A stretch of DNA of 46,052 nucleotides, taken from NCBI GenBank assembly GCA_903860745.1, contig CAIORQ010000073.1, positions 1 to 46,052 of the forward strand, read 5' to 3'. Both the position numbers and the translations under genes were made by a program. This stretch comes from an uncultured Actinomycetes bacterium. Its GTDB lineage: Bacteria > Actinomycetota > Acidimicrobiia > Acidimicrobiales > RAAP-2. The notes below the pieces were generated by a model. That model had not been told where the DNA came from and did no database searches. It saw nothing but the letters and a program-made list of their open reading frames with translations. Position 1 is the stretch's first letter. Every line of letters starts with the position of its first letter. Shown here in pieces: positions 758 through 35,571 of the stretch.

Positions 758-3700
758 ATGTCGCCGCGCGTACGTTCTCGTCGCTTCGTCGCCAAGGCCC
801 TCTTGGTGGCCTCGCTGTTCGTCATCGTGTTCGCGGGCGCCAGCGTGGCGTGGGCCATGTTCTCTTCGGGTGCCAACGCCGTCGGTACCGATTCGGTATC
901 GGCGGCCTCGGTCGATCATTTGAGCATCTCTCCGACGTCGCCCGCACTCAACGTGGGCGGTTCCCAGACCTTCACGGTGAGTGCCCTCGACGCCTCCAAC
1001 ACGACGCTCGCCGACGTCTCCACCTCCTCGACGCTCTCGATCAGCCCTGACGGGACGTGCTCCGCGGCGACGTGCAGCGCCTCGGTCGCGGGAGCGCACA
1101 CCGTTATCGCCCACTACTGGGGACTGAGTGTCTCGACCACGGTGTACTTCCTCGCCGACGGCGTCGGCACCATCACGGCGTCGCCGAGTGCCGTGGCGGC
1201 CAGTACGACGGGCCAGAGCGTGAACTTCACCTACACCGCACCGGGTGCGGGACTGGTGAACGGTGAACTCAGTATCGCGGTGCCCAACGGATGGACGTCG
1301 CCGTCCACCTCTGGAGTCGCCGCGGGATACGTGACCTCCTCCACGGGTTCCGTCACGGTGTCCGGTCAGACCATCACCATTTCCGGGGTCACGCTGGGTG
1401 CGTCGCAGTCGATGAACATCACGTACGGATCGAACCTCAGCCTCGTTCCGGGTGCGACAGTGACGTCGAGCACCGGTGCTCAGTCGTGGCAGGCCAAAGA
1501 GTTGTCCAGCGCGACCGGCACCCTCACCAGTCTGGCGAGTTCGCCGTCCATCGGCGTCTACGCGGCCAACGGAAGCGGCACCCTGACCACCGCCACGTCG
1601 AGCGTCGCCTATGCGACGACGGGTCAGAGCGTGGCCTTCACCTACACCGCCGCGACCGGCGCGATGAACAACGGTGTGGTGAGCGTCGCGGTGCCCGCCG
1701 GCTGGAGCGCTCCCACCACCGCCAACACCGTGGGCTGCACGACATCGAGCATCGGCAGCGTCAACGTCGCGGGTCAGACCATCACCGTCTCGGGTGTGAC
1801 GCTGGCGGCGGCCGCGACGATGACCATCACCTACGGCGCTGTGTCCGGTGGCAACTGCAGCGCGGGTGACGGTGCCAGCGTTCTCGCGACCCCTGGCGCC
1901 GTCACCTGGTTCGCCCAGCAACAATCCTCCAGCACCGCTGGTCTCACCAACTTGGCCAGTTCGCCGTCCATCTCGGTCACCAAGGCCAACCAAGCGACGC
2001 TGTTACTTTCGACCACGGCGGCCACCTACAACGGCTCGGCCTACTCGCTCGTCCTCTCCACCACCGGCGGATCGGGCACCGGGTCCCTCTCCTACGGCGT
2101 CACGAACGGCACCGCGTCGGGATGTTCGGTGACGACGGGGACGCTCAGCGCCACCTCGTCGGGCACCTGTCTCGTCACCGCTACCCAAGCTGGTGACGCC
2201 AACTACAACTCCACTTCGTCAGTTCAGACGACGGTCACCTTCTCCAAGGCCGCTCAGGCGACCCTTCTACTGTCGACGACCTCGGCTTCGTATAACGGCT
2301 CGGCCTACTCGCTCGTCCTCGCCACCACCGGCGGATCGGGCACCGGGTCCCTCTCCTACGGCGTCACGAACGGCACCGCGTCGGGCTGTACGGTGACGTC
2401 GGGGACTCTCAGCGCGTCGGGAAGCGGCACCTGTCTCGTCACCGCTACCCAAGCCGCGGACGTCGACTACACCTCCATCTCCTCGGTCCAGACGACGGTC
2501 ACCTTCACCAAGGCCAACCAGACTTTCACCTGGACGGTGCCGGGGACCCAAACCTGGGTCGTCGGTGGCGCGGGCACCTTCTCGCTGGGCAGCGCCAGCG
2601 ACTCCTCGGGTTCGACCGTCAGTTTCGCGAGCTCCACGACCTCTATCTGCACTGTCGCCGGTACCACGGTCACGATGCTCACCCCGGGCACGTGCACGAT
2701 CACGCCGACCGCGCCGAGCAGGGGCCAGTATCTGACGACGGTCGGAAATCCCAGCAACATCACCATTAATCAGGCCGCGCAGACCACGCTGGTCCTCTCG
2801 AGCACGTCGGCCACCTACAACGGTTCGGCGTTCACTCTCAACCTCGCCACCTCCGGCGGATCGGGCACCGGCTCCCTCTCCTACGCCGTCACCAACGGCA
2901 CCGCGTCGGGTTGCTCGGTGCTGAGTGCCACCCTCACCGCCACCTCGTCAGGGACGTGCCTGGTGACGGCGACGAAGGCAGCCGACGTTGATTACAACTC
3001 CGCCTCGTCGGTCCAGACGACGGTCACCTTCTCCAAGGCCACTCAGGCCACGCTCGTCGTGTCGACGACGTCGGCCTCCTACAACGGATCGGCCTACTCG
3101 CTCGTCCTCGCCACCACCGGCGGATCGGGCACCGGTTCGGTCTCCTACGCCGTCACCAACGGCACCGCGTCGGGCTGTTCGGTGACGTCGGGGACGCTCA
3201 GTGCGACGTCGTCGGGTACGTGTCGGGTCACCGCGACCCAAGGCGCGGACGTCGATTACAACTCCGCCTCGTCGGTCCAGACGACGGTCACCTTCTCCAA
3301 GGCCGCTCAGGCCACGCTCGTCGTATCGACGACGTCGGCCTCCTACAACGGATCGGCCTACTCGCTCGTCCTCGCCACCACCGGCGGATCGGGCACCGGC
3401 TCGGTCTCCTACGCCGTGGCGGCGGGCACCGCGTCGGGCTGTACGGTGACGACGGGGACGCTGAGCGCCACGTCCTCAGGTACCTGCCTCGTCACCGCCA
3501 CGCAGGCCAGCGACACCAACTACAACGCTGCCTCCTCGGTCCAGACGACCGTGACGTTCTCCAAGGCCAGCCAGACCATCACCTGGACGGCGCCGGGCCC
3601 GAAGACCTGGGTCGTGGGTGGTGCCGGCACCTTCTCGCTGGGCAGCGCCAGTGACTCCTCGGGTTCGACCGTCACCTTCGCGAGCTCTACGACGAGCATC

Positions 3701-4471
3701 TGCACGGTCGCGCTCACCACGGTCACGATGGTGAGCGCCGGAACCTGCACCATCACCCCCACGGCTCCCGCACAAGGCCAGTACGTGCTCAGTGTCGGCA
3801 ACCCGAGCAACATCACCATCAATGGAGCGAGCCAGAGCATCAACTGGACGGCGCCCGGTGCGCAGACCTTCGTGAGCGGTGGCGCCGGCACCTTCTCGCT
3901 GGGCAGCGCCAGTGACTCCTCGGGTTCGACCGTCACCTTCGCGAGCGCGACGACCTCTGTCTGCACGGTCGCGCTCACCACGGTCACCATGCTCACCCCC
4001 GGGACCTGCACCATCACGCCCACCGCCGCGGCCAAGGGCAACTACGCCGCCACGACCGGATCCGCGTCCAACATCACCATCAACGCCAATGTCTCCAACG
4101 GTGTCACGGTGACGCCGTCGAGCACGAACTACAACTATTACGGCGCCCAGGAGTTGTTGACCATCAACAACACGAACTCCATCACCGCCATGAGCATCAC
4201 GATCAACGTGGCGCCGACCACCGGACTTTCGAACTGTCTGCAATTCAACGCCTACGCCACGGGCGCCGTGAACGAGAGTTGTCAAGCGGTGGGCAACGGC
4301 TTCTCCTTCACTTACACCCTGGTGAACGGTCCGATTCCCGCAGCCTTCCCGGGTGGCGACGTGGGCGCACAGTGGACCGGCAGCGGAACTCCGCGAGTCT
4401 CGACGGGCGACACCTGGAGCGTCACGTCGACCTCCGCGGGTGTCCAGTCCACACTGAGCGGCACGTTCTAG
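758..4471 (+). CDS. Large secreted Ig-like repeat protein (1237 aa)
   Basis: Probable cell-surface or matrix protein. Residues 11-34 form a hydrophobic signal followed by WAMFSSGA and a short 'GTDSVSAASV' segment, the SipW-type pattern also seen in the gene just upstream. The order after that is a BIG2-like domain (about 55-135), two related ~120-residue modules containing TTGQSV..FTYTA, then 88-residue (R) and 87-residue (B) modules in the order R-R-B-R-R-R-B-B, and a non-repetitive C-terminal domain with three cysteines. Every R and B module carries Cys-x14-Cys ending in GTC, a likely disulfide. The frame stays open as far as 707, but ATG 758 is just before the basic signal start and 7 nt after the previous stop. 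No sortase motif or C-terminal membrane anchor is visible. The ligand is unknown. Confidence 0.8.
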   Translation: MSPRVRSRRFVAKALLVASLFVIVFAGASVAWAMFSSGANAVGTDSVSAASVDHLSISPTSPALNVGGSQTFTVSALDASNTTLADVSTSSTLSISPDGTCSAATCSASVAGAHTVIAHYWGLSVSTTVYFLADGVGTITASPSAVAASTTGQSVNFTYTAPGAGLVNGELSIAVPNGWTSPSTSGVAAGYVTSSTGSVTVSGQTITISGVTLGASQSMNITYGSNLSLVPGATVTSSTGAQSWQAKELSSATGTLTSLASSPSIGVYAANGSGTLTTATSSVAYATTGQSVAFTYTAATGAMNNGVVSVAVPAGWSAPTTANTVGCTTSSIGSVNVAGQTITVSGVTLAAAATMTITYGAVSGGNCSAGDGASVLATPGAVTWFAQQQSSSTAGLTNLASSPSISVTKANQATLLLSTTAATYNGSAYSLVLSTTGGSGTGSLSYGVTNGTASGCSVTTGTLSATSSGTCLVTATQAGDANYNSTSSVQTTVTFSKAAQATLLLSTTSASYNGSAYSLVLATTGGSGTGSLSYGVTNGTASGCTVTSGTLSASGSGTCLVTATQAADVDYTSISSVQTTVTFTKANQTFTWTVPGTQTWVVGGAGTFSLGSASDSSGSTVSFASSTTSICTVAGTTVTMLTPGTCTITPTAPSRGQYLTTVGNPSNITINQAAQTTLVLSSTSATYNGSAFTLNLATSGGSGTGSLSYAVTNGTASGCSVLSATLTATSSGTCLVTATKAADVDYNSASSVQTTVTFSKATQATLVVSTTSASYNGSAYSLVLATTGGSGTGSVSYAVTNGTASGCSVTSGTLSATSSGTCRVTATQGADVDYNSASSVQTTVTFSKAAQATLVVSTTSASYNGSAYSLVLATTGGSGTGSVSYAVAAGTASGCTVTTGTLSATSSGTCLVTATQASDTNYNAASSVQTTVTFSKASQTITWTAPGPKTWVVGGAGTFSLGSASDSSGSTVTFASSTTSICTVALTTVTMVSAGTCTITPTAPAQGQYVLSVGNPSNITINGASQSINWTAPGAQTFVSGGAGTFSLGSASDSSGSTVTFASATTSVCTVALTTVTMLTPGTCTITPTAAAKGNYAATTGSASNITINANVSNGVTVTPSSTNYNYYGAQELLTINNTNSITAMSITINVAPTTGLSNCLQFNAYATGAVNESCQAVGNGFSFTYTLVNGPIPAAFPGGDVGAQWTGSGTPRVSTGDTWSVTSTSAGVQSTLSGTF
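1991..3571 (+). repeat. Five 264-bp R modules (88 aa) in a surface protein
   Basis: R modules begin at 1991, 2255, 2780, 3044 and 3308, each with QATL or QTTL, and are exactly 264 bp long. A 261-bp B module (2519-2779) interrupts them. R4 and R5 are nearly identical in DNA over their first ~130 bp, which points to recent duplication. Shared core motifs are YNGSA, GGSGTGS and SGTC. Confidence 0.9.
2519..4093 (+). repeat. Three 261-bp B modules (87 aa) in a surface protein
   Basis: B modules start at 2519, 3572 and 3833, each about 261 bp. They share QT/QS-W(T)-P at the start, GGAGTFSLGSASDSSGSTV in the middle and a Cys-x14-Cys pair. The last two are directly adjacent; the first lies between R2 and R3. 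Confidence 0.85.
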
Positions 4472-4660
4472 GTCGACGATGTTTGCGGTGGTCTCCCCTT
4501 CGAGCGGTTCTCTCGTCACCGTCTGTTCGCGCACCCTCGCGACGCACCGATTCTCGAGAGTCAGGGAGAAACACGTGATCACGATGAGCGAGCCCCTGGC
4601 CCTCTCTCGATACCGCGATACGTCGAACGGCGACGTCGCGACAAGTACTAGGAGAAATGT

Positions 4661-5077
4661 ATGACATCACTCGATCATCAGCCCGGCTCAGGTGCCGCGG
4701 CGATGGTGAGCGTCTCGTCGTGGCGCTTCGTGCGACGCGCTGTCGGAGCCGCTCTCGTCGTCGGCGTCTCGTGCAGCGCATTCGTCGTCGCCGTGTGCGC
4801 CGGCTTCTGTCACACGGCGGACGCGGCGCAGCGCGTCCACGGGCTGCCTCGCGCGATGACGTCGAGCGGCGTCAGCGGTGCAGTCGCGTGGTGGGCTCAT
4901 CCCACGGCGAAGCTGCTCGTCGCCGTGGGGAGCCTCGTCGTCGTCGCGGTGTCGCAATTCTTGCGTTGGTGGCGCCGGGCGACCGACACGATGGTGTGGC
5001 GTCCCGAACTGATGTCGCACTCACGGGTGCTCGCCGAGCCGACCGAGTTGCGGTACCGAGAGATGGACTTGGTCTAG
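4661..5077 (+). CDS. Small two-helix membrane protein
   Basis: Unrecognised 138-residue protein. Two hydrophobic helices are visible (about residues 27-49 and 84-104), separated by a ~35-residue loop and followed by a basic, Trp-rich patch (LRWWRR) and a soluble tail. AGGAG at 4650-4654 precedes ATG 4661 with good spacing. It lies 189 bp after the repeat protein on the same strand, so it could be an accessory of the surface cluster, but nothing in the sequence proves this. Its stop overlaps the stop of the convergent fabH-like gene. Confidence 0.65.
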   Translation: MTSLDHQPGSGAAAMVSVSSWRFVRRAVGAALVVGVSCSAFVVAVCAGFCHTADAAQRVHGLPRAMTSSGVSGAVAWWAHPTAKLLVAVGSLVVVAVSQFLRWWRRATDTMVWRPELMSHSRVLAEPTELRYREMDLV

Positions 5078-5994
5078 GACCAGCGCACCACGGACGACGC
5101 CCACGTCATCCCCGCACCAAAACCCGTCAACAGGGCGTAATCGCCGGTCTTGATGCGCCCGTCGTTGCGGGCCACGTCAAAGGCCAGGGGTATCGAGGCG
5201 CTGGAGGTGTTGCCGTAACGGTCGAGCGCGATGACGGCGCGGTCCATCCCAATGCCCAGACGATCGACGATGGCCTGGATGATACGGATGTTGGCCTGGT
5301 GCGGGATCACGAGCGCCAGGTCGTCGGCGGTGATGCCCGCGCTCTCGATCGCCTGCAGGGAGGACTCGACCACCACGCGCACGGCGCGGCGAAACACTTC
5401 GGCGCCGTCCATGGTGAAGGTTCCCTCGTGCTCGCAGGTCAACAAGTCGGCGCCCGAACCGTCAGCCCCCAGGGAGAAGGACAAGATGTCATTGATGTCG
5501 GGGTCGTACTCGAGGACCGCGGCACCGCCGCCATCGGCCAGCAGCACCGCGACATTGCGGTCCGTCCAGTCGACCCAGTTCGACAGGTGCTCGGCCCCGA
5601 TCACCAAGATGCGCTTGTTGCCGGTCTCGAGGAAGCCCTGCGCGGTGCGCACCGCGTACATGAAGCCACTGCAAGCCGCGTTGACGTCCATGGCTGGGCA
5701 GGTGAGTCCGAGGTCGTCCGCGATCAGCGCCGCCGTGGCGGGAGCCATACGGTCCGGCGAGGTGGTCGCGAGCAGGCAAAAGTCGATGTCCTCGGGTTCG
5801 ACGCCGGCGTCGGCCATGGCGTTACGCCCCGCGATGACACCGAGCGAGCGCGCCGTGCCCCCGACGTAACGCTGGCGGATCCCGGTGCGCGCGGTGATCC
5901 ATTCGTCCGAGGTGTCGAGCGTGAGCGAGAGCTCATCGTTGGTGACAATGCGATCGGGCAGACCGATTCCCCAGCCCTTGAAGCGAACTCCCAT
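5074..5994 (-). CDS. fabH: Beta-ketoacyl-ACP synthase III (FabH-type)
   Basis: Thiolase-fold condensing enzyme that would join an acyl-CoA to malonyl-ACP to start fatty acid synthesis, or a related step. The 306-residue length is close to the family norm. The catalytic triad is complete: Cys108 in AACSGF, His232 in PHQANIRI and Asn262 in YGNTSS. The C-terminal GFGAG motif is also present. No other fatty-acid synthase genes are adjacent, so it may be a stand-alone FabH paralogue using an unusual primer. A hotdog thioesterase is encoded 50 bp upstream on the same strand. A TAGACT box lies about 30 nt before the ATG. Confidence 0.88.
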   Translation of the reverse strand: MGVRFKGWGIGLPDRIVTNDELSLTLDTSDEWITARTGIRQRYVGGTARSLGVIAGRNAMADAGVEPEDIDFCLLATTSPDRMAPATAALIADDLGLTCPAMDVNAACSGFMYAVRTAQGFLETGNKRILVIGAEHLSNWVDWTDRNVAVLLADGGGAAVLEYDPDINDILSFSLGADGSGADLLTCEHEGTFTMDGAEVFRRAVRVVVESSLQAIESAGITADDLALVIPHQANIRIIQAIVDRLGIGMDRAVIALDRYGNTSSASIPLAFDVARNDGRIKTGDYALLTGFGAGMTWASSVVRWS

Positions 5995-6044
5995 GTTGTC
6001 AGCCCCTCACTGGCTCGATGCTTCGCCCAGTCTACGTCGCGGGC

Positions 6045-6458
6045 CTAGTCGGTCGAGGGTGCGGAGATGACCTGTAGCGAACATCGCGCCACTGATATCA
6101 AGTTGCCGTGTTCGTCGGTCATTTCAATGCCCCAGACGTGCACGGTGCGGCCCCGGCGGATCGGGGTGGCCGTGGCCGTGAGGACCCCGGAGCTGACCGG
6201 GCGCAGGTGAGAAATGTTCAACTCCGTGCCCACCACGACCTGGCCCGGTTCGACGCTCATGAAACCTCCCACCGAAGCCGCCCCTTCAGCGATTAGCGCC
6301 GAGACGCCGCCGTGCATGATGCCAAAGGGCTGATGCACGCGCGACGTGACGTCGAGTTCGAGGACCACCTTCTCAGGGGTCGCCATCGTCGTGCGGATGC
6401 CCAAGAAGGCGTGCACGTTGGTGACGTCGCTCGAGTCCGTGGAGTAGTGGTCGCTCAT
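6045..6458 (-). CDS. Hotdog-fold thioesterase (PaaI/MenI type)
   Basis: Predicted acyl-CoA thioesterase of 137 residues. It has the family motif GIMHGGVSALIAEGAAS: His49-Gly-Gly binds the substrate and Glu58 is the likely catalytic acid. The N-terminal ~20 residues are variable. The substrate cannot be told from the sequence; phenylacetyl-CoA-type and DHNA-CoA thioesterases share this pattern. It precedes the FabH-like gene on the same strand with a 50-bp gap, so co-transcription is possible. The start is probably leaderless: TAGACT, seven bases, then ATG. Confidence 0.85.
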   Translation of the reverse strand: MSDHYSTDSSDVTNVHAFLGIRTTMATPEKVVLELDVTSRVHQPFGIMHGGVSALIAEGAASVGGFMSVEPGQVVVGTELNISHLRPVSSGVLTATATPIRRGRTVHVWGIEMTDEHGNLISVARCSLQVISAPSTD

Positions 6459-6465
6459 GTAGGGA

Positions 6466-6471
6466 AGTCTA
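6466..6471 (-). promoter_or_regulatory. -10 box of leaderless thioesterase promoter
   Basis: TAGACT on the minus strand lies exactly 7 nt upstream of the ATG at 6458, with no ribosome site between. This is the TAnnnT-N7-ATG spacing of actinobacterial leaderless transcripts. Confidence 0.55.
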
Positions 6472-6483
6472 GAAGTGGCTGGC

Positions 6484-6489
6484 TAGCCT
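6484..6489 (+). promoter_or_regulatory. -10 box of leaderless threonine aldolase promoter
   Basis: TAGCCT lies exactly 7 nt upstream of ATG 6497, divergent from the thioesterase box only 12 bp away. It also favours ATG 6497 over the TTG at 6491. Confidence 0.55.
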
Positions 6490-6496
6490 CTTGGTT

Positions 6497-7522
6497 ATGA
6501 CCCGCCACGTGGATTTGCGATCCGACACCGTGACCCAGCCGACCCCCGAGATGCGCGAAGCGATGTCCCAAGCGATTGTCGGCGACGATGGTTTCGGCGA
6601 CGATCCGACCGTGAAGGCACTCGAAGAGCGCTTCGCCGAGATCGTGGGCAAGGACGCAGCTCTTTTCGTTCCCTCGGGAGTCATGGCCAATCAGATCGCC
6701 GTGCGCATCCTGACGCGCCCGGGCGACGTCATCGTCGCGGGTAAGGGTCAACACGTGGTGAGTTTCGAGATGGGGGCGTCGGCGCGCAACGCGTCGGTGC
6801 AATTCGCTCTGGTGGACGATTCGTCGGGTGAGCTCCGCCTCGATGACGTCATGGACGTGGTCGAGGCGGAGAAGGATCATCAGGTCGCGGTGTCCATGGT
6901 CGAGATCGAGAACACTCATATGACGTCGGGCGGCACCCCCTGGGACCTCGCGCACTTGTCGGCACTGGCGCGCGCCCTGGGTGACAAGCCCATCCACATG
7001 GACGGGGCCCGACTGTTCAACGCGTCGGTCGCCACCGGTGCGTCGCCGCGCGACATCGCCGCGAGTGCGACGACGGTGATGGCCTGCTTGTCGAAGGGAC
7101 TGTGCGCGCCGGTGGGCTCTCTCCTCGCGGGCCCGGCTGAGTTGATGCGCGCCGCGCGCGTCGAGCGCAAACGCCTGGGGGGAGCGATGCGTCAGGTCGG
7201 CATCCTGGCCGCCGCTGGACTCGTGGCGCTGGACACCATGGTCGAGCGCCTGGCCGATGACCACGCGCGCGCTCGACACCTGGCGGGACTCTTCGCCGCG
7301 GCGTTTCCCGAGTCGCACTACGACCCCTCGTCCTGTCGGACCAACATCGTGGCCTTCGATCACCCCCAGGCGCGCCAGATCGTGCACGAATTGGTGCAGC
7401 GTGGCGTCTGGGGCGACACCATCGCGCCGCGACGGGTACGTTTCGTCACCCACGCCGGAGTGAGCGACGAGGACCTCGACTTCGTCGCCGACGTCCTGGC
7501 CCACTTCACTCCGGCCCCCTGA
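6497..7522 (+). CDS. ltaE: Low-specificity L-threonine aldolase
   Basis: PLP enzyme that cleaves L-threonine or allo-threonine to glycine and acetaldehyde. The N-terminal signature [11 protein letters not shown] and the FGDDPTV motif are typical. The PLP lysine is in [12 protein letters not shown] (Lys200 from this start), with the upstream HMDGAR motif supplying the PLP-ring aspartate. At 341 residues it matches family length. I start at ATG 6497 because a -10 box sits seven bases upstream; the frame also allows TTG 6491. A related possibility is another beta-eliminating lyase of the same fold, but the motifs fit threonine aldolase well. Confidence 0.9.
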
Positions 7523-7524
7523 GA

Positions 7525-7550
7525 GGCCGCCGCCGTCGCGAGGGGCGGCC
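7525..7550 (+). terminator. Hairpin after threonine aldolase gene
   Basis: GGCCGCC at 7525-7531 pairs with GGCGGCC at 7544-7550 (7-bp stem, 12-nt loop), 2 nt after the stop codon. There is no T-tract, as is common for high-GC terminators. Confidence 0.4.
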
Positions 7551-7627
7551 GTTCGCGAGAAGTTCACCATGCTCGGGTGGTCGTGACAATGGGTTGGGGG
7601 TAGCCTAAAAGGGCAACAGAGTGCGCC

Positions 7628-8887
7628 ATGACCGATATTCTCCACCTCTCCACGTTCCTGCGCCGTCCCATCTTTGATCAGGACGGTGACCGGATTGGCC
7701 GCGTCCAGGACTTGGTCGCGCGCCTCGGCGACGACGCGCACCCGCCAATCGTCGGTGCGGTCATCCGCATCGAGGGACGCAACCTCTTCGTGCCCATTCG
7801 CAAGATCGGGGGTCTGAGCGAGGGCCGCATGACCTTCGAGGGCAAGCGCGTCGACCTGCGCCGTTTCGAGCGCCGCCCGGGCGAACTACTGCTGGCCGAG
7901 GACTTGCTAGCGCGCAATCTCATCAACCTGGTGAGGGGCCGGTTGATCATCGCCAACGAGATCGAGATCGCCGAGATCGAGGGTCGATGGGAAGTGGTGG
8001 GAGTCGACCCGGGCCGACGACCGTTCTTTCGCCGGGTCCTGGGCCAACGCATGGGTCAGCGTCTCAAGGCCGAGGCCATCGTTGACTTCGCCTCCATCGA
8101 GCCGTTCGTCTCACACGTGCCCTCGGCGCGACTGCGTATCCCCTATCGCAAACTGGCCAAGCTGCACCCGGCCCAGATCGCCGACCTGGTCGAGCAGGCC
8201 AGCCACGAGGAGGGCGAAGAGATCATCGAAGCGGTGGGGCTCGATCGCGAACTCGAGGCCGACGTCTTCGAGGAGCTCGACACCGAGCACCAGCTCGAGT
8301 TCCTGGAGTCACGCTCCGACGAGGAGGCCGCTCGTCTGCTGACGCGCATGGAGCCCGACAACGCGGCCGACCTCATCAACGAGATCGACCAGGAGCGTCG
8401 CCTGCCCATCCTCGAGAACCTGCCCGAGGCCCAGCAGGGCAAGGTTCGCCAGTTGCTCTCCTACAACGCCGACACCGCCGGTGGCTTGATGAACACCGAC
8501 TTCGTGTCGGTCTCCGACACCGCCACGGTGGCCCAGGCCATCGAGGCCATCCGCATGTCCAAGGTCCCCGCGGAATCGCTCTACGCGGTCTTCGTGACGG
8601 GCCAGGATTCGCGGCCGGTGGGTTCGGTCTCCCTGGGCTCACTGCTCAAGGCGCGCGACGCCGACCTGGCGCTGAGCGTCTCGCGGACCCAGCTCAGCCA
8701 CGTGCACCCCAATTGGGACCTGCACCGGGTGGCACGCAAGATGAGCGACTTCAATCTCACCGTGGTGCCGGTGCTCGACGACGACCACGACGTGATGATC
8801 GGGGTGATCACCGTCGACGACCTTCTCGAGGAGCTCCTGCCCCAGGGATGGCGCAAGGAGTTCGGGATGACGACGGTGGAGGAGTGA
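7628..8887 (+). CDS. Soluble MgtE-N / CBS sensor with PRC-barrel
   Basis: Cytosolic protein of 419 residues. It has a PRC-barrel-like N-terminus (about 3-130), an MgtE_N superhelical domain (about 178-280, with the DTAGGLMN motif at its end) and a CBS pair (about 287-405). It lacks the five membrane helices of true MgtE channels, so it cannot transport by itself. In MgtE the N and CBS domains bind Mg2+ and gate the pore. The next gene is an NRAMP-family transporter, so the natural inference is a Mg2+-sensing regulatory subunit for that transporter. TAGCCT at 7601-7606 is a possible -10 box. No strong ribosome site precedes the ATG. Confidence 0.85.
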   Translation: MTDILHLSTFLRRPIFDQDGDRIGRVQDLVARLGDDAHPPIVGAVIRIEGRNLFVPIRKIGGLSEGRMTFEGKRVDLRRFERRPGELLLAEDLLARNLINLVRGRLIIANEIEIAEIEGRWEVVGVDPGRRPFFRRVLGQRMGQRLKAEAIVDFASIEPFVSHVPSARLRIPYRKLAKLHPAQIADLVEQASHEEGEEIIEAVGLDRELEADVFEELDTEHQLEFLESRSDEEAARLLTRMEPDNAADLINEIDQERRLPILENLPEAQQGKVRQLLSYNADTAGGLMNTDFVSVSDTATVAQAIEAIRMSKVPAESLYAVFVTGQDSRPVGSVSLGSLLKARDADLALSVSRTQLSHVHPNWDLHRVARKMSDFNLTVVPVLDDDHDVMIGVITVDDLLEELLPQGWRKEFGMTTVEE

Positions 8888-8917
8888 TGCCGGCCGTCGT
8901 ACGTCGCTGCGTTCTAA

Positions 8918-8938
8918 GGGGGCTTGTCTGAAACCCCC
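8918..8938 (+). other. GC hairpin between sensor and transporter genes
   Basis: GGGGG (8918-8922) can pair with CCCCC (8934-8938) across an 11-nt loop, in the 179-bp gap between the MgtE-like and NRAMP genes. It could be a terminator or part of a leader; I recognise no riboswitch consensus. Confidence 0.3.
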
Positions 8939-9020
8939 CAGTACCGGCTGTAGAGCTGTCCACGACACGACTCAACCTCTGATCAGAGAAGAGGCGCGCC
9001 CCTAGCGTCCTTCGTCCCAC

Positions 9021-9043
9021 GTGGTTGTTTCGCGAACGACCAC
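9021..9043 (+). promoter_or_regulatory. Inverted repeat upstream of NRAMP-family gene
   Basis: GTGGTTGTT at 9021-9029 pairs with AACGACCAC at 9035-9043 (one G-T pair). It ends 10 nt before the Shine-Dalgarno at 9054-9060. It could be a repressor operator or an RNA hairpin controlling translation. Confidence 0.4.
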
Positions 9044-9066
9044 GAGAGAACGAAAGGAGGTGGCGC

Positions 9067-10641
9067 GTGAGCGAGAAGTCGACCGAACATCAGATCACCG
9101 GGGCCTTCGGCACCATCGGCTCCCACGACGCCGGCGCCCGACGCGGCGCCCGCGCGCGCCTCCTCACCCTGCTCGCCATCATCGGACCTGGTCTCCTCGT
9201 GATGGTGGGCGACAACGACGCCGGCGGAGTCTCGACCTACGCCCAGGCGGGGCAGAACTACGGCTACACGCTGCTGTGGACCCTGCCGATGCTCATCCCG
9301 GTGCTGATCATCGTCCAGGAGATGGTGGCGCGCCTGGGGGCGGTGACCGGTGTGGGTCACGGCCGTCTGATCCGTGAGCGCTTCGGGCGCTACTGGGCCA
9401 ACGTGTCCATCTCCTCGATCCTCTTCTTGAACTTCCTCATTATCATCACCGAGTTCATCGGCATCTCCTTGTCGATGGAGTACTTCGGCGTCTCACCGTA
9501 TTGGTCGGTGCCGGTCGCGGTGCTCCTGCTCTTCGCGGTGACGGCCTCGGGTTCCTTCCAGCGCTGGGAACGCTTCATGATGCTCTTCGTCGCCGTCAAC
9601 TTCTTCGTCGTCCCCCTTATCGTCCTGGCTCACCCGCACTATTCGTCGGTGTTCGTGCACGCCGCCGTACCCTCGATCCGCGGCGGCGCCAGTTCCAGCG
9701 CGGTCCTGTTGATCATCTCGATCATCGGAACGACGGTGGCGCCCTGGCAGTTGTATTTCCAGCAGTCCAACATCGTCGACAAGAAGATCACCCCTCGCTG
9801 GCTCAACTACGAACGCGTCGACACCATCATCGGTTCGGTGATCGTCGTCATCGGGGCGGGGGCCCTCATCGCGACGACGGCGGGCCTGGCGCAGCACGGC
9901 GGTACCAACGCCTTCACCTCGGCCCTGGGCGTCGCCCGCGGCCTCAACCACTACCTGGGGCACGGGACCGGGGCCCTCTTCGCCATCCTGCTCTTGAACG
10001 CCTCGATCATCGGCGCGGCGGCGGTGACGCTGGCCAGTTCCTACGCGCTGGGGGACTTGTCGAACTCGACGCAGAGCCTCGACGCGCGCTTCCGTGACGC
10101 CAAGGCCTTCTACGGCGCCTTCGCCGGACTCTTGGTGGTGGCGGGCACGGTCGCGGTGATCCCGCACGCGCCCCTGGGGCTCATCACCCTGGCGGTGCAG
10201 GCCATCTGCGGCCTGATGCTTCCCTCCACCACGATCACCGTCCTGCTGCTGTGCAACGACCGCGAGGTCATGGGCCCCTGGACGAACCCCAAGTGGCTCA
10301 ACGCGATCGCCGTCACCATCGTCGCGGTGCTCATCGTGCTGTCCATCACCATGATGGTCTCGACGCTGTTCCCCTCGGTCAACGTCATCGGGCTGCTCGA
10401 GGCGATGGCCGCGGCCGCCGTCGTCGGGCTCGCCGTGGGCCTGCCCATCGGCCTGCGGCGGCTCGCGACGCCACCCACCTACGACGTGGACCGCCGCGAC
10501 TGGCGCACCCCGCGACTGACCCTGTTGGCGCCCGTGTCGATGTCGCGCTCGCGCCGCTGGCTGATGCGCGGCCAGAGCACCTACCTCCTGATCGCCGGCA
10601 CGCTCCTGATCGTGCGCATCGTCCAACTCGCCACCTCCTAG
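9067..10641 (+). CDS. NRAMP-family divalent metal transporter, NRMT-like
   Basis: Integral membrane transporter, 524 residues and about 11 helices. The GTG start is fixed by AAGGAGG at 9054-9060. The TM1 region reads GPGLLVMVGDNDAGGVSTY, so the canonical metal motif DPGN is DAGG (51-54). In TM6 the canonical MPHNLY is APWQLY (225-230), so the soft-metal methionine is alanine and the histidine is tryptophan. The described NRMT branch, which carries Mg2+, also has this Met-to-Ala change. Together with the MgtE-like sensor directly upstream, this points to Mg2+ rather than Mn2+ or Fe2+. The substrate is inferred. Confidence 0.85.
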   Translation: MSEKSTEHQITGAFGTIGSHDAGARRGARARLLTLLAIIGPGLLVMVGDNDAGGVSTYAQAGQNYGYTLLWTLPMLIPVLIIVQEMVARLGAVTGVGHGRLIRERFGRYWANVSISSILFLNFLIIITEFIGISLSMEYFGVSPYWSVPVAVLLLFAVTASGSFQRWERFMMLFVAVNFFVVPLIVLAHPHYSSVFVHAAVPSIRGGASSSAVLLIISIIGTTVAPWQLYFQQSNIVDKKITPRWLNYERVDTIIGSVIVVIGAGALIATTAGLAQHGGTNAFTSALGVARGLNHYLGHGTGALFAILLLNASIIGAAAVTLASSYALGDLSNSTQSLDARFRDAKAFYGAFAGLLVVAGTVAVIPHAPLGLITLAVQAICGLMLPSTTITVLLLCNDREVMGPWTNPKWLNAIAVTIVAVLIVLSITMMVSTLFPSVNVIGLLEAMAAAAVVGLAVGLPIGLRRLATPPTYDVDRRDWRTPRLTLLAPVSMSRSRRWLMRGQSTYLLIAGTLLIVRIVQLATS

Positions 10642-10651: not shown

Positions 10652-11467
10652 ATGCGAGCCCGTACCCTGCTCCTGGTGCACGCGCACCCCGACGACGAGT
10701 CGCTCTTCACGGGCGGGGTCATCGCGCACTACGCCGCCCTCGGCGTGCGCACCGTGTTGGTGACCTGCACCCTGGGTCAGCTGGGCTTCGACAGCCAGGG
10801 GCGCGAGGGCTGGGACCCGGACCACGACGCCGCGGCGACGGCGGCCACGCGAGCGGGGGAACTGCGCCGAGCGGCCACGGTGCTCGGCGTCGATCGCCAC
10901 GTCACGCTGGGCTTCAAGGACTCGGGTATGTCGGGTTGGGCGAGCAATGCCGACCCCGACGCCTTCGTCACCGCCGACGTCGAAGCCACCGCGCGGCTCC
11001 TCGCGGCCGTGATCGACCAGGAGGACGCCCAGGTCGTGCTCACCTACGACGAACACGGCTTCTACGGACACCCGGACCACGTCGCGGCGCATCGGGTGAC
11101 CCGACGCGCGGTCGAACTCAGTGCCCGGGCGCGCCGCCTCTTCTACCCGGTCGTGCCGCGGGGGGTGCTCGACGAGTTCATCTCGCGCGCGCGCGACAGC
11201 GGCGTCTATCTGCCGCCGTGGATCCTCGAGGCCGTCGCCGAGACTCCCGACGAGGCGGTCGCCGCCGTCATCGACGTCGCCGCGGTGGCGCCGATCAAGC
11301 ATCGGGCCATCGCCGCGCACGCCTCTCAGCTCGACAACGCCGATCTCGTGGCGATGGACGAGGAGGCCTTCGCGCTGCTCTTCGGTCGGGAGTACTACCA
11401 GCTCGGGTGGGAAAGGTCCCCGTCGTCGCTAGCCTGTGACGATGATTTGTTCAAAGGACTGCCGTGA
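10652..11467 (+). CDS. PIG-L/LmbE-family deacetylase (MshB/Mca-like)
   Basis: Zn-dependent N-acetylglucosaminyl deacetylase-fold protein, 271 residues. Zinc ligands are His12 and Asp15 in AHPDDE and His143 in GHPDH; Asp14 is the likely catalytic base. In actinobacteria this family includes MshB (mycothiol synthesis) and Mca (mycothiol-conjugate amidase). It overlaps the next PIG-L gene by 4 nt (GTGA), so the two are translationally coupled. Which one acts as MshB and which as Mca cannot be settled by eye; this one lacks the acidic insertion of its partner. Confidence 0.85.
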   Translation: MRARTLLLVHAHPDDESLFTGGVIAHYAALGVRTVLVTCTLGQLGFDSQGREGWDPDHDAAATAATRAGELRRAATVLGVDRHVTLGFKDSGMSGWASNADPDAFVTADVEATARLLAAVIDQEDAQVVLTYDEHGFYGHPDHVAAHRVTRRAVELSARARRLFYPVVPRGVLDEFISRARDSGVYLPPWILEAVAETPDEAVAAVIDVAAVAPIKHRAIAAHASQLDNADLVAMDEEAFALLFGREYYQLGWERSPSSLACDDDLFKGLP

Positions 11468-12327
11468 GTGACTTGACCTTCCTGGCGGTGCACGCGCACC
11501 CCGACGACGAGGCCACCTCCACGGGCGGCGTCTACCGGCTCCTGGCCGACCAGGGGGTGCGCACGGTGCTGGTGACCTGCACCAACGGAGAGTGCGGTGA
11601 CGACCCCGACGGGGCCAAGCCCGACGCCGACCACCACGACGGCGACCTCGTCGCCGCGGTGCGGGCCAAGGAGCTCGACCGGGCCGTGGAGGTGCTGGGC
11701 ATCGACCGCCTGGTGCGCCTGGGGTATCGCGACTCGGGGATGATGGGCTGGCCCCAGAACGACGACCCCGAGTGCTTCTGGGCGACGTCGGTCGACGAGG
11801 CCGCCAGTCGCTTGGCCGGCGTGCTGCTCCAGGAGCGGCCCCAGGTCGTGATGACCTACAACGAGTTCGGCTTCTACGGCCACCCCGACCACATCCAGGC
11901 CAATCGCGTCACCCGTGCGGCCCTCAAGCTGCTCGACTACGAGCCGACCCTCTACTACAACGCCATCCCCAACTCGGTCATGGCGATCATGCGGGCGCGC
12001 TGGGAGGAGGAGGACCGTCGTCGGGCCGAGGAGGACGCCGCCAAGGGCATCGTCCGCGAGCCCGAGGGGCCGCCGTCGGTCGACGGCGAGCCGATCGACA
12101 TGGGCACCGCCGACGAGCTCATCGGGGCGGCCATCGACGTGACGAGCGTGACCGACGCCAAGTACGACGCCCTGGCCGCCCACGCCTCGCAGATCGGTGA
12201 CTCCTTCTGGCTCAAGATGACCAGGGACGAGTTCCGCGCGGCCATGGGCACCGAGTGGTTCGTGCGGGTCACCAACCCTCGCGGTCTCGAGGGCCGAGTG
12301 ACCGACCTCTTCGCGGGGTATCGCTAG
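11464..12327 (+). CDS. mca: PIG-L deacetylase, mycothiol conjugate amidase-like
   Basis: 287-residue paralogue of the gene upstream, with the same zinc site: His12 and Asp15 in AHPDDE, and His143 in GHPDH. Its length and the extra charged helix at about 177-200 (ARWEEEDRRRAEEDAA) resemble mycobacterial Mca, which cleaves mycothiol S-conjugates to mercapturic acids and so detoxifies electrophiles. The GTG start overlaps the previous stop. A strong shared terminator follows. The assignment to Mca over MshB rests on length and shape only. Confidence 0.72.
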   Translation: MSDLTFLAVHAHPDDEATSTGGVYRLLADQGVRTVLVTCTNGECGDDPDGAKPDADHHDGDLVAAVRAKELDRAVEVLGIDRLVRLGYRDSGMMGWPQNDDPECFWATSVDEAASRLAGVLLQERPQVVMTYNEFGFYGHPDHIQANRVTRAALKLLDYEPTLYYNAIPNSVMAIMRARWEEEDRRRAEEDAAKGIVREPEGPPSVDGEPIDMGTADELIGAAIDVTSVTDAKYDALAAHASQIGDSFWLKMTRDEFRAAMGTEWFVRVTNPRGLEGRVTDLFAGYR

Positions 12328-34011: not shown

Positions 34012-35391
34012 CTAGCCGATCGGTTCGTAGCGGGCGGTGAAGTGGCGCAGGGCCGCTGGCTCGTAGGTCATGCGATATCCCGGTAGGGACGCGGCGTCTC
34101 GCGCCACCGCACTGACGACCTCGATGACGTAGTCGACGTGGCTCTGGGTGTAGGTCCGACGCGGGATGGCCAGACGCACGAGCTCCATGGCCGCCGGCAC
34201 TTCGCTCCCGTCGGGCTGACGGCCGAACATGACCGTGCCGATCTCGCAGGCGCGCACGCCGCCGGCCTCGTAGAGGGCCACGGCGAGCGATTGTCCGGGG
34301 TACTGCAGCGGCGGGATGTGCGCCAGCAGGGCCTTGGCGTCGAGGTAGACCGCGTGGCCGCCGATGGGCTTGACGACCGGTACGCCGGCGCGGTCCAGGG
34401 CGTCGCCCAGGTAGGCGGTCGAGCCGATCCGGTAGCGCAGGTAGTCGGGGCTGACCGCCTCACTCAGGCCCTGGGCCAGGGCCTCGAGGTCGCGGCCGGC
34501 CAGTCCGCCGTAGGTGGGGAAGCCCTCGGTGAGGATGAGGACGTTGCGGCACTTCTCGGCCAGGGCGTCGTCGTTCAGCGCGAGCCATCCGCCGATGTTG
34601 CCGAAGGGGTCCTTCTTCGCGCTCATGGTCATGCCGTCGGCCAGCGAGGCGACCTCGCGCACGATGTCGGCGACCTCGCGGTCCCCCTGGCCCTCCTCGC
34701 GCTCGTGGATGAACCAGGCGTTCTCCGCGAAGCGACAGGCGTCGAGGAACAGCGGCACGCCGTAGCGGTGCGAGATCTCCGAGGCGGCGCGGATGTTGGC
34801 CAGCGAGACCGGCTGTCCCCCTCCGGAGTTGTTCGTGATCGTGAGCATCACGACGGGCACGTCGTCGCGACGCTCGGCCAACAGCGCCTCGAGCGCCTCG
34901 AGGTCGATGTTGCCCTTGAAGGGGTGGATCGCCGCCGCGTCGCGACCCTCGGGGATCACCATGTCGAGGGCCGTCGCGCCGGACGCCTCGACGTTCGCGC
35001 GGGTGGTGTCGAAGTGGGTGTTGTTGGGTATGACCTTGCCGGGCCCGCCGAGGACCGAGAAGAGGATCTTCTCGGCGGCGCGCCCCTGGTGGGTGGGGAT
35101 CACGTGACGGAAGGGGAAGAGGTCCTTCACCGCCGCCTCGAAGCGGAACCACGAGGGCGAGCCGGCGTAGCTCTCGTCGCCGTGCTGGATCGCCGCCCAC
35201 TGGTCGCGCGACATCGCCCCGGTGCCCGAGTCGGTCAGCAGGTCGATCAGCACGTCCGTCGAACGGAGGTTGAAGACGTTGTAGCCGGCCTCGGCGAGGG
35301 CGCTGCGCCTCTCGGCGGCGGAAGTGAGCCGCAGGGGCTCGACCGAGTGGATGCGGAAGGGTTCGATGATGGTCGAGAAGGTGTAGTCCAT
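34012..35391 (-). CDS. tnaA: Tryptophanase (tryptophan indole-lyase)
   Basis: PLP enzyme of 459 residues that splits L-tryptophan into indole, pyruvate and ammonia. The family motifs LLTDSGTGAMS, PTHQGR, SNSGGGQPVSLAN-like, and SAKKD with Schiff-base Lys260 are clear. Two residues separate it from tyrosine phenol-lyase: the position that is Thr in TPL and Asp in tryptophanase is Asp128 (FDTT), and the specificity Arg of TPL is Ile384 (ACEIG). This supports tryptophanase. No TnaB permease or TnaC leader is nearby. The real start is ATG 35391; the same frame runs open far upstream antisense to the FG-GAP gene and is not coding there. Confidence 0.87.
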   Translation of the reverse strand: MDYTFSTIIEPFRIHSVEPLRLTSAAERRSALAEAGYNVFNLRSTDVLIDLLTDSGTGAMSRDQWAAIQHGDESYAGSPSWFRFEAAVKDLFPFRHVIPTHQGRAAEKILFSVLGGPGKVIPNNTHFDTTRANVEASGATALDMVIPEGRDAAAIHPFKGNIDLEALEALLAERRDDVPVVMLTITNNSGGGQPVSLANIRAASEISHRYGVPLFLDACRFAENAWFIHEREEGQGDREVADIVREVASLADGMTMSAKKDPFGNIGGWLALNDDALAEKCRNVLILTEGFPTYGGLAGRDLEALAQGLSEAVSPDYLRYRIGSTAYLGDALDRAGVPVVKPIGGHAVYLDAKALLAHIPPLQYPGQSLAVALYEAGGVRACEIGTVMFGRQPDGSEVPAAMELVRLAIPRRTYTQSHVDYVIEVVSAVARDAASLPGYRMTYEPAALRHFTARYEPIG

Positions 35392-35397
35392 GGGCCA

Positions 35398-35403
35398 AAG
35401 GTA
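35398..35403 (-). promoter_or_regulatory. -10 box of leaderless tryptophanase promoter
   Basis: TACCTT on the minus strand, six bases before ATG 35391; no ribosome site is visible. Confidence 0.4.
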
Positions 35404-35571
35404 ACAGCGGTCCCTCCGGCGACGACCCCTCATCTCCACCCTTTGGTCACTTTCTCGGATCCCCGGCAGCCTCCCGGGACACGACGCGGGCGGTCGCGGG
35501 CGCCCGAGGTCCGCTATTTTCGTGGAAGCGCGGGTGCGTCCGAGGGGGCGGCCCGCCACGGGGAGGTCGCC

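Follow-up and report, generated by a model that had tools for sequence, protein, structure and literature searches.

Which metal is imported by an NRAMP-family transporter when the gene ahead of it encodes a protein resembling the cytosolic part of MgtE, and how is such a pair controlled? The question is raised by contig CAIORQ010000073.1 (GenBank assembly GCA_903860745.1) of an uncultured member of the Acidimicrobiales, whose positions 1 to 46,052 on the forward strand form the window analysed here. The host genome comprises 2.13 Mb in 110 contigs at 96.6% completeness, the window being part of one contig. Within it a sensor gene (7628-8887, + strand) and a transporter gene (9067-10641, +) lie on the same strand, with 179 bases between them. 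An earlier note on this DNA, made from the sequence, had taken them for a Mg2+ transporter with a separate Mg2+-sensing subunit. With moderate confidence, we favour reading the pair as a Mg2+ importer of the NRMT kind that would be subject both to protein feedback and to control by a lineage-specific leader RNA.

The transporter belongs to the NRMT side of the NRAMP family

The transporter matches the Pfam family Nramp with 247.5 bits and scores 109 bits against the NCBIfam model MntH, for which the cut-off is 430. Its start was placed at the GTG at 9067, six bases 3' of an AGGAGG, in preference to the listed TTG at 9025. In transmembrane helix 1 (TM1) the protein reads GDNDAGGVST and in TM6 GTTVAPWQLYF, so DAGG for DPGN and APW for MPH, as given in the earlier note, are both present. 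Its further claim that the Mn/Fe ligand set is gone, with Met replaced by Ala, holds for some positions: compared with the Mn/Fe NRAMP set, Met is changed to Ala, Asn to Gly and the TM6 Ala to Thr, but the Asp (D51) is kept. The wording was too strong because D51 stays and because EleNRMT, which has the same motif residues, transports Mn2+ besides Mg2+ (PMC8806188; this and the other papers are cited from part of their text). The NRMT signature, DxxG in TM1 and TxxA/T in TM6 (Ramanadane et al. 2022, PMC8806188), is present in the window transporter in its DxxG-TxxA form, as DAGG and TTVA.

Among sequences in the PDB, EleNRMT gives the strongest match with 218 bits; BfraNramp reaches 82.5 and DraNramp no more than 52.7. 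The AlphaFold2 model of the transporter (pLDDT 84.4) likewise has EleNRMT (7qia) as its best PDB fold, with a TM-score of 0.88 by target length. For the phylogeny, 107 rows were picked from 181 and both motif stretches were removed; the tree was calculated by a quick method with support from the SH-like approximate likelihood ratio test (SH-aLRT) only, and carries a long-branch warning. It omits loci L106, L160, L170, L175, L178 and L183 and takes 15 loci out of L004-L083. The window transporter falls into an all-NRMT branch of 21 rows (support 100), nested in a 62-row branch (97) that also contains EleNRMT, while 21 canonical NRAMP rows form a separate branch (99). The 62-row branch is mixed, with three DxGS rows, three of the DPAG type and one further row among its members, and four changes on the tree are needed to account for the NRMT label. 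By signature, match to EleNRMT and tree placement, the transporter is classed as an NRMT-type NRAMP, apart from the Mn/Fe NRAMPs. This agrees with the placement on the Mg2+-carrying NRMT branch in the earlier note, and the phylogeny that it had called for groups the protein with NRMTs, not with Mn/Fe NRAMPs.

A C-terminal extension follows the part that aligns with EleNRMT (Table 1). Its W479 is found in 86/86 aligned rows, and the extension with the linker carrying this residue is a possible contact for the sensor.

The same genome encodes a second NRAMP (contig C82, L003:1357-2646), which reads DAGS and AVIMPW, keeps the TM6 Met and is a DxGS row of the tree; with 160 bits against EleNRMT it is a protein of the NRMT side as well. 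The relatives L164 and L166 share this type and form a branch (100), and none of the three proteins has an MgtE_N gene nearby. At L116 and L127, NRMT-like transporters beside a sensor have lost the TM1 Asp (NGASG and IGASG, respectively).

The sensor resembles the cytosolic domain of MgtE

The gene before the transporter encodes MgtE-N and CBS domains without a channel, as the earlier note had seen. Pfam matches are found to MgtE_N (75.7 bits, cut-off 25.9) and CBS (61.2 bits, cut-off 24), along with a PRC match below threshold in residues 6-34; there is no MgtE channel domain among the Pfam matches. The tail is short and ends LLPQGWRKEFGMTTVEE. The nearest solved sequences are MgtE cytosolic domains, with 102.8 bits for 2oux, 87.7 for 8gpv and 83 for 2yvy, and the AlphaFold2 model (pLDDT 88.3) finds 8gpv as its best Foldseek match (TM-score 0.82 by target length).

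Mutants of Thermus MgtE have identified D91/D247 (Mg4), D226/D250 (Mg5), D95 (Mg6), E59 (Mg7), E258 (Mg2) and D259 (Mg3) as gating residues (PMC5882242). We counted the residues at these positions in 72 sensors of related loci and 30 more distant ones. Asp is found in all 72 near sensors at the positions of D91 (sensor D244), D247 (D398), D95 (D248) and E59 (D212). In the distant sensors the first three are Asp in 27/30, 30/30 and 22/30, respectively, and the last is Asp or Glu in 28/30. As judged from the alignment, the ligand positions of MgtE Mg2+ sites 4, 6 and 7 remain acidic in the sensor. At the D250 position, 69/72 near sensors have Glu. Two features weigh against the favoured reading: D226 of site 5 corresponds to N376, with Asn in 71/72 near and 19/30 distant sensors, and E258 and D259 (sites 2 and 3) are without counterpart, as the sensor's own short tail begins before them.

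Partner sensors of other lineages differ at the C-terminus. Those of L137, L138 and L142 end in a single membrane helix, whereas others, for example in L116, L118, L121, L123 and L128, have a longer membrane-like domain. The membrane forms are encoded at L116:808-2739, L118:997-2874, L121:1055-2875, L123:3182-5032 and L128:846-2888 (frames of 607-681 amino acids), and at L137:3208-4560 (single helix). Weak MgtE-channel matches were assigned by coordinates to L116 (genome G109, 38.9 bits) and L189 (G015, 37.9 bits). The membrane forms are perhaps steps between full MgtE and the soluble sensor.

Sensor genes are specifically adjacent to NRMT-type transporters

A sensor homologue lies beside the transporter in 72/80 related loci, downstream of it in L028 and L065. 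Of the eight loci without a sensor, L075 alone offers full room; the transporter frame is preceded by 695 nt in L073 and by 152 nt or less in the other six. At L061, apparently tandem NRMT genes (about 3948-5678 and 6001-7563) stand behind one sensor gene.

In 149 actinobacterial genomes, an MgtE_N gene was found within 3 kb of 29/38 full-signature NRMTs, of 2/2 lacking the Asp of the signature, and of 0/63 other NRAMPs. The resulting contrast of 31/40 to 0/63 has a Fisher p of 1e-18, which is not to be taken literally because the genomes are related. The count covers 103 NRAMP places of at least 99 bits and 112 MgtE_N rows of at least 47 bits (20 weaker rows were left out of each), and eight NRAMP places outside the alignment were entered among the others. 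One left-out MgtE_N match, in G038 (25.7 bits), lies directly before the L136 NRAMP; counted, it gives 1/63 or joins the NRMT side, since that NRAMP (DPAG / TTLAPW) is classed as DPxG, yet fits DxxG-TxxA and sits on the NRMT side of the tree. Its neighbour is a 304-aa frame (L136:1991-2905), a probable sensor with PRC-like and MgtE_N parts and no CBS domains, which overlaps the transporter gene at 2812-4140.

Within the NRAMP family, adjacency to a sensor-type gene is specific to the NRMT side. The family scores and this adjacency count exclude chance. Co-occurrence of the sensor had been proposed as a check in the earlier note, which had named clustering with Mn/Fe NRAMPs and rare adjacency as results that would speak against its reading; given the NRMT-side placement and the specific adjacency, neither was observed.

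The adjacency may have a simpler meaning: the sensor could be a general Mg2+-responsive cytosolic protein that does not gate the transporter, and the genes would be neighbours only through co-regulation of Mg2+ genes. We consider this rather improbable, although several observations fit it. No sensor is nearby for 9/40 NRMT-type genes, which also counts against the favoured reading. In the 149 genomes, 57 MgtE_N genes have no match to the MgtE channel domain within 1.6 kb, and 27 of these are not beside an NRAMP; in G104, G123 and G023 (one genus) and in G049, a gene of this kind is found 2-3 kb away from corA. Moreover, NRMTs transport without an MgtE-like gene (PMC4072509), and the LLPxxWR tail is present in 18/18 soluble relatives without an adjacent NRMT. 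On the other hand, the adjacency is strong and exclusive to NRMT-type NRAMPs. Action of the sensor at the membrane is suggested because some NRMT partners end in a membrane helix (L137) or domain (the five loci listed above).

The LLPxxWR tail had been considered as a docking signal for NRMTs. This was rejected, since a tail common to those soluble relatives is uninformative on docking. The genes near corA in G104, G123, G023 and G049 are soluble MgtE_N-CBS genes, and no NRMT-type NRAMP is found in these sample genomes; the soluble sensor may serve other Mg2+ importers.

Mg2+ is the probable main substrate

We rate Mg2+ as the probable main substrate of the window transporter. An M-box, a riboswitch for Mg2+, directly precedes the transporter or the pair in 8/56 other loci scanned (L047, L049, L065, L073, L075, L114, L115 and L149), and L047, L073 and L075 are within the 21-row tree branch of the window transporter. 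L067 and L080, with an M-box elsewhere in the locus, are excluded from this count. At L075:5533-5703 (Chloroflexi) the M-box stands directly before the NRMT gene in the one full-length locus without a sensor gene. The window's own genome yielded no CorA (14/14 controls were positive) and no MgtE channel domain.

Other results count against this reading. A P-type ATPase of the MgtA type (751.5 bits, cut-off 610.75) and a CNNM protein are encoded in the same genome. Because of these two, the pair is not the only possible Mg2+ route, and the idea of a sole Mg2+ importer was dropped. NRMTs as a general replacement for CorA were also rejected, as CorA is present in 29/39 genomes with and 85/110 without an NRMT (p = 0.83). 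MgtE channels occur in 16/39 and 70/110 (p = 0.02) and MgtA in 11/39 and 10/110 (p = 0.006) of these genomes; as the genomes are related, no inference is drawn from either difference. In the experiments of Shin et al. 2014 (PMC4072509), the Acidobacterium capsulatum pair Acp2976/2977 gave full rescue of Mn2+ transport and only partial rescue of Mg2+ transport, its MgtE-like gene brought no better Mg2+ rescue, and NRMT transporters of C. acetobutylicum were functional without an MgtE-like gene.

The pair could accordingly move mainly Mn2+, or Mn2+ and Mg2+ alike, and Mn2+ could be the ion to which the MgtE-like protein responds, a proposal already made for Acp2976/2977. The full rescue of the Mn2+ mutant by Acp2977 and the partial rescue of the Mg2+ mutant, the MgtE-like neighbour notwithstanding, favour this view, as does the Mn2+ transport by EleNRMT. 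No canonical NRAMP was found in the window's genome either; the only other NRAMP there, the C82 protein, is on the NRMT side, though with the TM6 Met kept. Against it stand the M-boxes before transporters of the same branch, the absence of CorA and MgtE channels from the genome and the MgtE-type acidic sites retained in the sensor, and we regard it as unlikely. Mg2+ transport by the window pair is likely but not settled, because the A. capsulatum pair rescued Mn2+ fully and Mg2+ only partly.

A conserved leader separates the two genes

The gap between the genes holds a leader of about 165 nt, which the earlier note had not remarked on. An alignment of this gap in related loci shows a stretch much more conserved than its flanks. 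The core of this stretch, P1, has the stem strands GGGGG and CCCCC and the conserved loop CTGAAA. The strict P1 core pattern is found once in the window and in none of 100 shuffles. A covariance model built from 32 copies was searched over 296 genomes of the class and matched 17 of them once each: 14/14 members of the genus (own genome included), 2/5 other members of the family, and one marginal case (G077). All 16 matches within the family lie between sensor and transporter genes; that in G077 lies elsewhere. Many matched genomes had fed the model, either themselves or by way of identical copies. G203, G238 and G254 had not, and two of the three match it weakly (E 0.0036 and 0.002). In 80 other sources no further copies were convincing except for L024 and L218, of the same group; L046 is weak (E 0.1).

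The P1 stem has a compensatory GGAGG/CCTCC version in L043 and L256 (G238) and a G-U version in L004, and is broken in L057 and L255. Covariation of P1 was not above shuffles and is not demonstrable because the element is too conserved, which weighs against an RNA function; a stem argued from covariation alone was set aside, and the stem rests on the two GGAGG/CCTCC cases. It also counts against the favoured reading that no M-box was found in the window, which gave no Rfam match; a scan of 8850-9110 gave no family even at E 10. In L047 and L049, an M-box occupies the same sensor-transporter gap.

Further downstream, the hairpin P4 adjoins the Shine-Dalgarno site, and an upstream strand can form a competing helix with the 5' strand of P4 (Table 1). 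In the P4 leader model R1, with 16 of 27 leaders, 12 cells are changed on both sides of P4, compared with 4.8 in shuffles (0/500 as high). A search with the P4 model placed the divergent leaders L014, L222, L020, L023, L024, L019 and L013 at the expected positions, with weak E-values of 0.01 to 0.8; as the hairpin is a palindrome, the model also matches the reverse strand. The competing helix, columns 68-73 with 126-131 of the 27-leader alignment, is paired in 91.6% of cells. It shows 15 two-sided changes compared with 5.3 in shuffles (0/500), spread over 5/6 pairs, and slid controls are lower. The 3' part of 34 leaders has a mean energy z of -2.80, with 28/34 below -1.5, and the whole window leader one of -2.54.

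Several tests were less favourable to a switching RNA. The pair types of P4 show no excess (12 compared with 12.0 in shuffles), and by duplex energy the competing helix is significant at p < 0.05 in 6/27 related leaders. RNAalifold on the 27 leaders gives P1 and the competing helix, not P4, with a covariation term of -0.44. Pairing of the Shine-Dalgarno region is modest over 34 leaders (0.62, shuffles 0.47) and without excess in the window itself (0.47 for both).

These results leave considerable room, somewhat short of even, for the gap not being a metal-sensing RNA: P1 would be a DNA operator, part of a promoter, or a hairpin for processing or stabilisation, and P4 a plain hairpin next to the Shine-Dalgarno site. 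P1 is a dyad (GTTCT..GGGGG / CCCCC.AGTAC), and its GGAGG/CCTCC versions fit a DNA palindrome equally well; the lack of covariation in P1 alone and the weak Shine-Dalgarno pairing point the same way. Unlike a symmetric operator, however, the element has a one-sided conserved loop, CTGAAA. The covariation of P4 and the competing helix and the position shared with the M-boxes of L047 and L049 also argue for RNA, as does a simple scan of 7440-9100, which turned up neither a sigma-70-type promoter nor an intrinsic terminator. We read the leader as a cis-regulatory RNA candidate, which may stand in for the M-box in this lineage.

In L037, L041, L060 and L064, the gap just past the sensor stop codon holds a shared stretch, GGTACCGTC..AAGGCGC, followed by an inverted repeat. 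It is perhaps a second lineage-specific leader.

Proposed control of the pair

In the favoured reading, the transporter would import Mg2+ and probably Mn2+ as well. The separate sensor would correspond to the cytosolic portion of a channel of the MgtE type, minus the pore. When cytosolic Mg2+ is high, the N and CBS domains of the sensor would close around Mg2+ ions, as they do inside MgtE, and inhibit the transporter. The structured leader would control translation of the transporter, with P1 as the recognition part and P4 as the hairpin adjoining the Shine-Dalgarno site, for whose 5' strand the upstream strand would compete. Such a mode has precedent, because the M-box of M. tuberculosis acts translationally through competing Shine-Dalgarno helices (PMC12810186). 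Mg2+ is a first guess for the leader's ligand. What the sequence itself shows is the two families, the signature residues, the adjacency, the conserved leader and the covariation of P4 and of the competing helix; the metal, the inhibition by the sensor, the leader's action as RNA, its switching and its ligand are inferences.

A bolder form is tentative and on balance doubtful: the leader would be a new class of metal-sensing riboswitch, most likely for Mg2+, that replaced the M-box in an Acidimicrobiaceae-like lineage. The NRMT would then be doubly controlled, in its translation by RNA and in its transport by a detached MgtE-type sensor. Should it sense Mg2+, the leader would join the M-box and the mgtA leader as a natural Mg2+ riboswitch, and one regulatory RNA would here have replaced another ahead of the same gene.

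Features of the locus

The coordinates of the pair and its leader are collected in Table 1. Directly after the transporter, at 10652-11467 and 11464-12327, lie tandem PIG-L deacetylase genes, similar to mycothiol MshB/Mca and under both curated cut-offs. An open reading frame of 1237 aa with FG-GAP_2 repeats (172.9 bits) spans 34138-37851.

Table 1. Position and properties of the sensor gene, leader elements and transporter gene in the window.
Feature	Position	Strand	Remarks
Sensor gene	7628..8887	+	419 aa; PRC-like N-terminal part, MgtE_N residues 179-281, CBS pair about 286-404
MgtE_N coding region	8162..8470	+	D212, D244, D248 align with MgtE E59, D91, D95
P1	8911..8945	+	GTTC[TA]AAGGGGG-N5-CTGAAACCCCC-N-AGTACC; stem 8918-8922 with 8934-8938; nearly invariant
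Upstream strand TCAACC (ACAACC in most relatives)	8972..8977	+	Can pair with 9023-9028
Possible outer helix	9007..9060	+	Pyrimidine-rich 9007-9014 with Shine-Dalgarno region 9051-9060; minimum-energy fold, weak support
P4 hairpin CGTGGTTGTTTCGCGAACGACCACG	9020..9044	+	Just 5' of Shine-Dalgarno site; 5' strand shared with competing helix
NRMT-type NRAMP transporter	9067..10641	+	524 aa
TM1 DAGG (D51-G54)	9217..9228	+	Motif reading
TM6 TTVAPW (T222-W227)	9730..9747	+	Motif reading
Transporter C-terminal extension past EleNRMT-aligned region	10360..10638	+	Helices 440-464 and 494-523 predicted; linker with W479

Comparison with known systems

The gene pair (Shin et al. 2014) and the structure and signature of NRMTs (Ramanadane et al. 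2022) are already known. The arrangement, which the earlier note had called not familiar from MgtE or CorA, has been described before: Shin et al. 2014 (PMC4072509) report an MgtE-N-like gene beside most NrmT genes and propose feedback regulation. A limited search of the open-access literature found no description of this leader or of the sensor acting on the transporter. The window shares with the 2014 pairs an NRMT-type NRAMP and, beside it, a separate gene whose product is a homologue of the cytoplasmic domain of MgtE. Among NRMT-MgtE_N pairs, M-box control is present in some members only; the window differs in having no M-box and its own conserved leader in the gap. The PRC-like N-terminal part of the sensor is without mention in the available portion of that paper.

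EleNRMT (7qia, 7qic, 7qji, 7qjj; PMC8806188) is the closest relative of known structure in both sequence and fold, with GNDAGG / GTTIAPW compared with GDNDAGG / GTTVAPW in the window. The window transporter is about 90 residues longer at the C-terminus, with two further predicted helices. In the rows nearest to EleNRMT (L137, L138 and L142) the sensors end in one membrane helix, whereas the window sensor is soluble.

The M-box (RF00380) resembles the leader in standing before Mg2+ genes, and takes up this very gap in L047 and L049; the competing Shine-Dalgarno helices of the actinobacterial M-box (PMC12810186) are like the mode proposed here. The window leader, in contrast, matches no Rfam family, and its conserved P1 resembles nothing matched.

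With Thermus MgtE (2zy9) the sensor shares the N domain and CBS pair, Asp at D91, D95 and D247, and an acidic residue, Asp, for E59, while the channel domain and the long plug helix are missing. The pair offers a way to test a question raised in 2014: can a cytosolic domain detached from MgtE gate a carrier of quite different fold? The soluble, single-helix and membrane-domain forms of the sensor offer a natural comparison series.

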